Below, piece by piece: positions 23,944-53,956 of a DNA stretch of 64,000 nt (within the stretch, counting starts at the first letter, position 1; each line of letters opens with the position of its first letter). The notes below the pieces were generated by a model that saw only the letters and a list, made by a program, of their open reading frames with translations, did no database searches and had not been told where the DNA came from. The DNA is taken from contig NZ_JAKZLA010000003.1 in assembly GCF_022808775.1 (NCBI RefSeq), positions 1 to 64,000 of the forward strand. Direction: 5' to 3'. This DNA comes from Geothrix terrae. Its GTDB lineage: Bacteria > Acidobacteriota > Holophagae > Holophagales > Holophagaceae. A program made the translations under genes and the position numbers.

Positions 23944-24011
23944 GGGACCTCCACGAAGGGCCGGATCGACAGGAGGGTGCATCCACCCCATCGCCCGGTT
24001 CAGGGTTGAGG

Positions 24012-24096
24012 TGAGCGCCGTTCCTGGAAGGATGGGTCCGAGCCTGAGATCCCGCACAGCCGATCTGCCGGGTCCTGCAGCGCTCCTCGGACCTCT
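24012..24096 (-). promoter_or_regulatory. SAH riboswitch controlling ahcY
   Basis: On the minus strand the leader contains GGTCCGAGGAGCGCTGCAGG, and later CAGGCTCGGACC and ACGGCGCTCA. These are the conserved blocks of the S-adenosylhomocysteine riboswitch. P1 pairs 24086-24093 with 24035-24042 over 8 bp. The pseudoknot pairs GAGCGC (24080-24085) with GCGCTC (24013-24018). A GC-rich P2 (CCCG...CGGG) lies between. The position directly upstream of ahcY is the canonical genomic context. Confidence 0.93.
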
Positions 24097-27960: not shown

Positions 27961-28097
<137 letters not shown>

Positions 28098-28180
28098 AAG
28101 GCCTTCCAGATTACCGTTGGGGGCGGTTCCGCACAAGGCTTCTTGCCCAGGGCCGCGCCCAGCCTTCAAGATGGAAGCAC

Positions 28181-28270
28181 GGAGGGATGGCCGAGCGGTT
28201 TAAGGCAACGGTCTTGAAAACCGTCGTGGGTGTGAGCTCACCGCGAGTTCGAATCTCGCTCCCTCCGCCA
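28181..28270 (+). tRNA. tRNA-Ser (anticodon TGA)
   Basis: The acceptor GGAGGGA pairs with TCCCTCC and CCA is encoded at the end (28268-28270). The anticodon stem ACGGT/ACCGT carries loop CTTGAAA with anticodon TGA at 28215-28217. There is a long variable arm (GGGTGTGAGCTCACC) and a T-arm CGAGTTCGAATCTCG. It decodes UCN codons and is divergent from the GCT tRNA 83 bp away. Confidence 0.97.
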
Positions 28271-52611: not shown

Positions 52612-53427
52612 TCATCCCAGTCCCGCCGCCACCTGGGTGGCGCGCTCGATGCCGCGGGCCACGACGGAGCGGATGCGGCCATCCTCCAGGGCCAGGAGGC
52701 CGGCGATGGTGCAGCCGGCGGGGGTGGTGACGTCGTCCTTGAGGGCGGCGGGGTGGCGGCCCGTCTCCAGCACCATGGCGGCGGCCCCCAGGGTCATCTG
52801 GGCCGCCAGCTCCACGGCCACGGCCCGCGGCAGGCCGCACTGGACGCCGCCTTCGGCCAGGGCCTCCAGGATGACGAACATGAAGGCCGGGCCGCTGGCG
52901 CTGAGGCCCGTGACGGCGTCCATGTGGCGCTCGTCCAGGTCCATGACCCGGCCCAGGGGCTCGAAGAGGGCCCGGGCCTGGGCCAGCTGGGCCTCGGTGA
53001 CCCCCTGCCCCGCCGCCAGCACCGTCATGCCCCGGCGGATGGAGCAGGGCGTGTTGGGCATGGCCCGCACCAGGGGCGTGCCTGCGGGCGTGTGGGCCGC
53101 CAGGAAGTCCAGGGTCGTGCCCGCCGCGATGGAGACCACCAGGGGGTGGTGGTCCAGAGCCCCCGACGCGGACAGACCCGCCAGCAGGCCCTTCAGCTCC
53201 TTCGGCTTCACGCAGAGCAGCACCAGCTCCGCATGGCGGACAGCCTCGTCCGCATCGCTCGAGAGCGCGATGCCCAGGGCCTCGGCCCGGGCCCGGGCCG
53301 CGCCCGGGTGCCGCGTGGCCGCGTGGATGCGGCTGGCGGGATAGCCGGACGCCTCCACCAGGCCGGCGCTGATGGCCTGGCCCATGGTGCCGAAACCGAG
53401 GATGGCGAGACGGGGATGGCGGCTCAT
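52612..53427 (-). CDS. proC: pyrroline-5-carboxylate reductase
   Basis: The 271-residue enzyme makes proline from pyrroline-5-carboxylate using NAD(P)H. The Rossmann motif LAILGFGTMGQAIS is at the N-terminus, LLCVKPKELKGLL and VSIAAGTTLDFLA are mid-domain, and VRAMPNTPCSIRRGMTVLA plus the C-terminal TGLSASGPAFMFVILEALA and DDVTTPAGCTIAGL signatures are typical. AAGGAG precedes the ATG. A rho-independent terminator with a possible leader peptide lies just upstream, suggesting attenuation. Confidence 0.96.
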   Translation of the reverse strand: MSRHPRLAILGFGTMGQAISAGLVEASGYPASRIHAATRHPGAARARAEALGIALSSDADEAVRHAELVLLCVKPKELKGLLAGLSASGALDHHPLVVSIAAGTTLDFLAAHTPAGTPLVRAMPNTPCSIRRGMTVLAAGQGVTEAQLAQARALFEPLGRVMDLDERHMDAVTGLSASGPAFMFVILEALAEGGVQCGLPRAVAVELAAQMTLGAAAMVLETGRHPAALKDDVTTPAGCTIAGLLALEDGRIRSVVARGIERATQVAAGLG

Positions 53428-53444
53428 GCGCGCTCCTTGGAACG

Positions 53445-53575
53445 AAAAACCCCCGCCGAGGGGGCGGGGGTGGATGGCGGGACCTGGATCCAGGTCAGCC
53501 GATCATGCGACTCCCCCCCGCACGCAAGGTGCTAGGGCGCGGGTGGATGGCCGGAATGAGGATCATGCGGATCAC
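53445..53575 (-). promoter_or_regulatory. candidate proC leader: peptide, hairpins and terminator
   Basis: On the minus strand, TTATAG (53575-53580) precedes a 23-codon ORF (53495-53566) reading MILIPAIHPRPSTLRAGG and ending SRMIG, with three Pro codons. Its TGA overlaps a 16-bp palindrome GACCTGGATCCAGGTC (53481-53496). An 8-bp stem CCCCCGCC/GGCGGGGG followed by TTTTT (53445-53470) is a textbook terminator 18 bp before proC. This order suits transcription attenuation but is inference. Confidence 0.45.
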
Positions 53576-53611
53576 TATAACCCTTCCGGACCTCCCGGCG
53601 GGCGGAAACCG

Positions 53612-53956
53612 CTACTGGTCCCGGCCCTGATCCAGGGTCCACCAGGGGCAGGCGCCCAGGTCTGAGACCACGAAGCCCTGCCGCATCTCGGAGATGAGCT
53701 GGAACTGTGTGCCGACCGGCGTGTGGAAGCCCGTGGTGATCTCGCCGGGCCCCGAGCGGACGCCGAAGAAGAAGTCCGCCTGCTCCAGACCCAGGCGCAG
53801 GATCGTCTCCTGGATGGCCTCCCGCTGGTCCATGCCCTCGGGAATGCCCTGGATCACCTGCACCGCGTCGCCCGCGATGATGGTGGGGGCGTAGGCCTCG
53901 GCGCCCTGGTCCTCCAGCACGGCCAGGGTGATGTGGGTGAACTCCTGGAGGTCCAT
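53612..53956 (-). CDS. hypothetical protein downstream of gltX
   Basis: The 114-residue protein is unrecognised. It starts MDLQEFTHITLAVLEDQGA and looks like a small soluble alpha/beta protein with strands AYAPTIIAGDAVQVIQG and ADFFFGVRSGPGE, ending in an aromatic-rich PWWTLDQGRDQ. Its ATG overlaps the gltX stop (TGATG), so translation is probably coupled to gltX. No membrane or signal sequence is visible. Confidence 0.72.
   Translation of the reverse strand: MDLQEFTHITLAVLEDQGAEAYAPTIIAGDAVQVIQGIPEGMDQREAIQETILRLGLEQADFFFGVRSGPGEITTGFHTPVGTQFQLISEMRQGFVVSDLGACPWWTLDQGRDQ

Follow-up and report, generated by a model that had tools for sequence, protein, structure and literature searches.

Ribosome-mediated attenuators are known for the trp, his, leu, thr, ilv, and pheA operons (PMC1183508, in the part of the paper that is accessible). 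According to that part, such a leader contains a short open reading frame (ORF) with codons for the pathway's own amino acid, four segments (I-IV) with mutually exclusive pairings, and a terminator before the gene, and the choice of regulatory codon matters. The leader that we describe here, upstream of proC in Geothrix terrae, has the same layout, with exclusive pairings that are predicted. Compared to the attenuators treated there (PMC1183508), it differs in that its putative signal is proline, its two control codons are one residue apart, its ORF is predicted to be leaderless or to have a very short 5' UTR, and it is found in Acidobacteriota.

Three other kinds of leaders are similar in part. 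In Salmonella, the mgtA and mgtCBR (mgtP) leaders contain proline codons in a short ORF, and low Pro-tRNA raises transcription (PMC3641672, accessible part), as we propose here. However, the Salmonella leaders control mgtA and mgtC/mgtB, and mgtP contains three proline codons in a row as well as a Shine-Dalgarno-like sequence (PMC3641672). The leaders that we describe precede genes of proline synthesis. In S. meliloti, the ATG of trpL (rnTrpL) is the 5' end of the transcript, which is what we predict here, but trpL concerns tryptophan and trpE(G), and it has further roles in trans, through both its peptide and its terminated RNA (PMC7298713, accessible part). Finally, candidate leader peptides of Actinobacteria, including the mycobacterial cys leaders, were found by comparing amino-acid-specific ORFs, as were ours. 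The accessible text of that survey does not contain the word proline, and its cys leaders are without conserved terminators (PMC1262725).

Within the open PMC set (titles and the starts of abstracts; subscription papers and preprints lie outside it), none of the matches listed describes a proline leader before proline synthesis genes, and neither do the accessible parts of PMC6951406 and PMC7815308. The proposed mechanism itself is classical ribosome-mediated attenuation; what appears to be new is proline as the putative signal for proline synthesis, the predicted leaderless (or nearly leaderless) ORF, and the occurrence in Acidobacteriota. A leaderless polycysteine attenuator has reportedly been tested in mycobacteria.

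From sequence comparisons, we think it very likely that the leader before proC is a ribosome-mediated proline attenuator. An earlier note on this DNA had suggested a proline-sensing attenuator on proC, and this is now supported by the conserved ORF, by its Pro-x-Pro codons, and by the presence of the same device before proBA.

The proC leader and its occurrence in Holophagaceae

The window that we analysed is a stretch of 64,000 nucleotides from G. terrae (contig NZ_JAKZLA010000003.1). The parts of the leader are listed in Table 1. The earlier note had described a short ORF, a hairpin, a 16-nt palindrome, and a terminator before proC, and all of these are present where it placed them.

Table 1. 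Features of the proC locus in the window.
Feature	Sequence or product	Position	Strand	Remark
-10-like hexamer	TATAGT	53574..53579	-	7 nt upstream of leader ATG
Leader ORF	MILIPAIHPRPSTLRAGGSRMIG, then stop	53495..53566	-	23 codons; predicted leaderless; ATG 53566-53564
Pro-x-Pro regulatory codons	CCG CGC CCT	53534..53542	-	codons 9-11; candidate control codons
Hairpin 1:2	CCCGCGCCCTAGCAC / GTGCGGGGGGG	53513..53543	-	Pro codons on 5' side
Segment 2	GCGGGGGGG	53513..53521	-	predicted antiterminator strand; complementary to terminator 5' arm
Perfect 16-nt palindrome	GACCTGGATCCAGGTC	53481..53496	-	between segments 2 and 3; overlaps ORF stop
Segment 3 (terminator 5' arm)	ACCCCCGCC	53463..53471	-	common to terminator and antiterminator
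Segment 4 (terminator 3' arm) and T run	GGCGGGGGT and T run	53445..53457	-	T run ends at 53445
Shine-Dalgarno of proC	AAGGAG	53433..53438	-	sequence
proC	pyrroline-5-carboxylate reductase	52612..53427	-	P5CR_dimer and F420_oxidored matches; ATG at 53427

The terminator stem (53471-53449) has 9 pairs, 8 of which are GC, and the gap between the end of the T run and the start of proC is 17 nt. Segment 2 (RNA GUGCGGGGGGG) resembles the 3' arm of the terminator in sequence and is able to pair with its 5' arm. In many relatives, the -10-like box of the proC leader is TATGCT instead. No two-box sigma-70 promoter passed a promoter scan of 3 kb, and there is no clear -35 box at the leader. The closest named proC, among the best 80 of 165 matches listed, is from Geothrix paludis (99% identical). 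Upstream of the leader, on the minus strand, are gltX and then a short ORF without a Pfam match. This ORF (114 codons, 53612-53956) lies between gltX and the leader, and by eye, a similar sequence also precedes proC in many relatives.

Taken alone, the stretch in the window is only mildly unusual and is not strong evidence. When 3 kb were scanned for terminators, there were 2 sites, which overlap, compared to 0.7 ± 0.7 in shuffled sequences; the fold z-score of the stretch is -1.75, and 10 of 200 shuffles were at least as stable. At the gathering score, no Rfam family matched the leader (the best sub-threshold match was anti-hemB, with 22.9 vs. 49.5 bits). The weight of the case comes from conservation, across 34 distinct proC leaders and 26 proB leaders.

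We searched 77 genomes from the family and found a match to proC in 57 of them. One of these (in G082) is only the 3' part of the gene, so 56 loci are readable. The leader is present in 34 of the 56 loci and absent from 22. (We picked the 34 leaders by eye, partly for Pro-x-Pro, and tallied them by hand.) All 34 differ in sequence. In each, an ATG opens an ORF of 20-25 codons with an in-frame Pro-x-Pro, and a hairpin with some T run, which is weak in L124 and L135, precedes proC. The distance from the -10-like hexamer to the ATG is 6-7 nt in 30 leaders and 10 nt in the other four (L132, L134, L135, and L136). The in-frame Pro-x-Pro is offset by 24 nt from the ATG in 23 leaders, and in the others it is at 27 nt, at 33 nt, or at several places. 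The stem of the terminator ends 14-30 nt upstream of the aligned start of proC. In L003, L005, and L007, a run of G's has six bases instead of seven and the ORF's stop comes earlier.

Leader peptides from other lineages differ yet keep Pro-x-Pro (MFFHPGLPPQPGTPGAAGRCAR, MTFHLAPSPCPLPRTLGAVERYGCR, MYIVPRISIPHPRPFSRGGWGVSR, MSVAPRITMPNPNPGVTAVR, MTSFAFNPAPSPRPSVAGGGPGTD, and MSALHFQTPRPSLPPPGAPAGEGLS). Isoleucine codons, which the earlier note had pointed out in the ORF, are not conserved across leaders; the Pro-x-Pro pair is conserved instead. As the N-terminal residues of the leader peptides vary freely, a role for isoleucine as a signal is not supported. The ORF itself, which the earlier note had proposed from the window alone, is kept in relatives (34 proC leaders and 26 proB leaders, with the ATG 6-10 nt from the -10-like box).

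Among the 22 loci without a leader, two (L119 and L133) do show a site that resembles a terminator, but no proline ORF. In several of the 22, proC lies closely behind the short ORF that is downstream of gltX. In four others (L008, L011, L019, and L028), what remains between proC and the ORF upstream of it is a short remnant that is T-rich or forms a small hairpin. By eye, it looks like the leader was deleted, several times, rather than never having been present in the genomes with remnants. Outside of the family, no leader was found in 8 of 9 genomes with a proC match (L138-L145; G057 was left out), and the named distant proC loci among the best 80 of 165 matches listed (L067-L110) yielded only copies that were already counted.

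We also note that in five genomes that are 96-100% complete (G002, G032, G001, G018, and G068), proB and proA are below the family's cut-offs, and proC and its leader are kept. In these genomes, pyrroline-5-carboxylate (P5C) may be derived from ornithine.

Related leaders upstream of proB

We looked for proB and proA in 47 Geothrix genomes, and proB was above the cut-off in 27. In G071, proB is truncated by the end of the contig, so we left it out, which leaves 26 readable loci. A leader of the same design precedes proB in all 26, including the window's own genome, where it is outside the window (locus L162, MFTVTTFNPRPSHPITGRPAGGL). These leaders align without gaps from the -10-like box onwards. 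In all 26, a CACACT-like box lies exactly 9 nt before the ATG (or GTG in L165). All 26 have the second proline, and 25 have the first (L153 has glutamine there), within variants such as NPRPSHP, NPIPSQPIPG, NPPPSQP, NPNPCPALP, and DPRPSHP. The terminator stem ends 14-23 nt before the ATG of proB (in the 22 of 26 leaders for which our script took an ATG). With a terminator just before the gene, transcripts from the leader must cross it. Because the same device is found before proBA, proline is the likely signal.

In the wider family, we found proB in 35 genomes. In four genomes from other genera (G073, G074, G089, and G093), the match to proB begins just 20-32 nt past the match to proC. With proB directly behind proC, the two genes would form an operon in these bacteria, and the proC leader would stand at its start. 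In G088, proC has no leader, but there is one before proB (MTSAAVRPASPRPSHLGAPERVPSA). The proB of G092 (G092:C186, L228) has a proline-rich ORF upstream (MLNLRPIPRPPFRPTGA) with no obvious T-run terminator, and this may be another form of control. By eye, there is no proline-rich leader ORF before the proB of G075 or G082.

Codon-level evidence and other explanations

We counted changes by codon position on trees of proB and proC. Outside of the two proline codons, they are evenly spread over the three positions (75, 72, and 64 in the proB leaders; 100, 103, and 93 in the proC leaders), so the rest of the leader peptide appears to be free to vary. At the two proline codons, the changes by position are 0, 1, 9 and 0, 0, 8; the third-base result for proC is partly forced, because that alignment was anchored on Pro-x-Pro. 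In frame 0 of the proB leaders, only codons 9 and 11 (proline) and 13 (histidine or glutamine) have at most 1 change at bases 1-2 and at least 4 changes at base 3, and no triplet in frames +1 and +2 has such a pattern. In other words, the proB leaders keep their control codons in a peptide that is otherwise free; in the proC leaders, this pattern is partly forced by the anchor. Both kinds of leaders have a short ORF with codons for the amino acid of the controlled pathway (proC, proB/proA) and an intrinsic terminator between the ORF and the gene.

The second proline codon is usually CCT: in 20 of 26 proB leaders (CCC in 6) and in 26 of 34 proC leaders (CCC in 6, CCG in 2). CCT accounts for just 32 of 630 proline codons in 25 ORFs from the window (chosen by length and GC3, not curated), as compared to 81 of 245 in 60 leaders. 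In theory, the sensitivity of an attenuator depends on which of the synonymous codons is used for control (PMC1183508, accessible part), and a rare CCT control codon would fit this theory. Alternatively, RNA pairing could constrain the same bases.

The proline content of the leaders is less telling. In the three frames of the proB leaders, 121, 95, and 118 of 594 codons are CCN, so the frame of the ORF is not enriched. The pattern CCNNNNCC is present in frame +2 as well, in 33 of 34 proC leaders and in all 26 proB leaders, and much of the leaders' proline content comes from C-rich hairpins alone. We dropped proline enrichment as evidence because CCN is about as common in frames +1 and +2 as in the frame of the ORF. 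In 16 hand-picked pairs of proC leaders, pN/pS was only 0.64, which is weak.

A ligand-binding riboswitch or a protein-binding leader might govern the terminator, with the ORF as a by-product of C-rich hairpins. This would agree with the CCN counts and with the weak pN/pS, and also with the fact that CCGCGCCCTAGC and GTGCGGGGGGG are strongly conserved at the nucleotide level within the core group. We nevertheless consider it unlikely, because the distance from the -10-like box to the ATG is fixed in 26 of 26 proB leaders and because third-base-only change at the two proline codons is confined to the ORF's frame. Also, three divergent leaders (L020, L061, and L124) keep Pro-x-Pro and lose the nucleotide motif, and the leader has no Rfam family at the gathering score.

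If the ORF is translated, the leader could instead sense slow translation of proline codons in general, such as from a shortage of EF-P, rather than the proline supply. Some leaders do contain Pro-Pro or Pro-Pro-Pro (L132, L134, and L020), but the conserved feature is Pro-x-Pro with a variable x (R, P, I, or N), not Pro-Pro. The targets that we found are proline biosynthesis genes, so we doubt this explanation strongly.

It is very improbable that the hairpin only ends the transcript of gltX, which lies upstream, or acts as a roadblock, with proC being read from elsewhere. There is a short ORF behind gltX just upstream of the leader, and 22 of 56 genomes do without the leader, with proC close behind that ORF in several of them, as might be expected for a terminator of gltX. 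But the stem ends about 20 nt from the start of proC, which leaves no room for a promoter; the hairpin is accompanied by a -10-like box and an ORF; and the same set recurs before proB, elsewhere in the genome. Lastly, T-box leaders are found on proline genes of Firmicutes, so a T-box for tRNA-Pro could in principle have the same target genes, but with no T-box match at the gathering score or in an Rfam search at E up to 5, we give this almost no credence.

Predicted pairings and proposed mechanism

If the leader is a ribosome-mediated attenuator, then it would sense the proline supply, via charged tRNA-Pro, and it would control proC, with a sister copy on proBA. Transcription would start at the leader's ATG or within a few bases of it, and the ribosome would load on the fresh 5' end; the evidence for a leaderless ORF is the spacing of 6-10 nt from the -10-like box to the ATG. 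If Pro-tRNA is plentiful, the ribosome would clear the two proline codons, reach the stop, and cover segment 2, so that segments 3 and 4 would pair and RNA polymerase would halt before proC. When Pro-tRNA is scarce, a ribosome would instead stall at CCG/CCU, within the 5' strand of hairpin 1:2. This would leave segment 2 free to pair with segment 3 while segment 4 has yet to be transcribed, so the terminator would fail and proC would be transcribed. We infer the start of the transcript, the stalling, and the read-through from the arrangement of these parts.

In our model of these pairings, the ribosome hides the RNA as far as 14 nt beyond the first base of its A-site codon, and the pairing is calculated for RNA that does not yet include the 3' arm. 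In L001, the predicted probability of the antiterminator is 0.81 with the ribosome at codon 9 and 0.77 at codon 11; it then falls to 0.55, 0.45, and 0.12, and it is 0.04 at the stop. In the model, the antiterminator is more probable with the ribosome at the control codon than at the stop for 23 of 23 modelled proC leaders (out of 34) and for 26 of 26 proB leaders. Its probability at the control codon is above the mean of shuffled sequences for 20 of 23 proC leaders and 21 of 26 proB leaders, and it beats at least 95% of the shuffles for 7 of 23 and 9 of 26. It is below the shuffle mean for L062, L065, L125, L151, L152, L158, L163, and L171. In the model, Pro-x-Pro tends, with exceptions, to lie near the last codons at which a stalled ribosome would leave the antiterminator free to form. 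The earlier note had suggested looking for alternate pairings in relatives, and these are predicted in most leaders, a minority of which do better than their shuffles individually.

Once the ribosome has reached the stop, the model gives the terminator a probability of 0.97-1.00 in 33 of 34 proC leaders (it is 0.04 in L065) and 0.84-0.99 in 26 of 26 proB leaders. In some proB leaders, antiterminator pairing is predicted to persist at the stop, at up to 0.58 (0.46 for the window's genome). As free RNA, most leaders are predicted to form the terminator, but L020, L022, L023, L065, and L152 hardly do. If full-length RNA is allowed to reach equilibrium, the terminator often wins even if the ribosome is stalled (0.92 for L001 at codon 9). 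The switch would therefore have to be kinetic, with the antiterminator forming first, during transcription.

We also aligned 23 of the 34 proC leaders (20 from the core group and 3 others). The consensus structure contains hairpin 1:2, a hairpin at the palindrome, and the terminator, and the covariation term is slight (-0.98). In hairpin 1:2, both bases of one pair differ in 3 of 23 leaders, and both bases of another in 1 of 23. In the palindrome, 3 of 23 leaders have a CG pair in place of UA, and the length of the loop varies while the pairing is kept, which disfavours the palindrome as a site in DNA for a protein. By eye, the palindrome is not seen in the divergent leaders L061, L065, L123, and L132. 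From these alignments, it is an RNA hairpin of this group, to judge by its predicted pairing, and not a general part of the leader.

A 14-base motif from the leader has 12 matches in 11 of 20 genomes, and 9 of these are in proB or proC leaders; the other 3 (L207, L209, and L217) are in long open frames. The reversed control pattern has 26 matches in the same genomes, so the number of matches is not above chance, and only their positions are telling.

Overall, we think it probable that Holophagaceae have a dedicated regulon (proC, proBA, and proC-proB) in which a leaderless ORF reads the charging of tRNA-Pro at a rare CCU codon. This would add a proline class beside the leaders for Trp, His, Leu, Thr, Ile, and Phe, and the leaders might also be a source of small trans-acting RNAs, as S. 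meliloti trpL is. If this is true, coupled transcription and translation would serve as a sensor in Acidobacteriota, with an initiation that is predicted to be leaderless.

The same genome contains another putative leader, with three tryptophan codons (MTLSFPTLRQGFLQGAWWWRAGSDGSLCEA) and a terminator, before a trpE-like gene (G000:C1:400943-402268, L218; this gene is below the family's cut-off). Its ATG is 31 nt past a TTGACA, and it is possibly leaderless. The layout is the same as that of the proline leaders, which may be part of a device that is used for tryptophan too, and this suggests attenuation as a wider habit. By eye, there is no such leader within 250 nt of hisG or leuA of this genome. 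Elsewhere in the window, we noticed a SAH riboswitch (24006-24094, minus strand) and two tRNA genes that point away from each other, with 83 nt between them (28008-28267).
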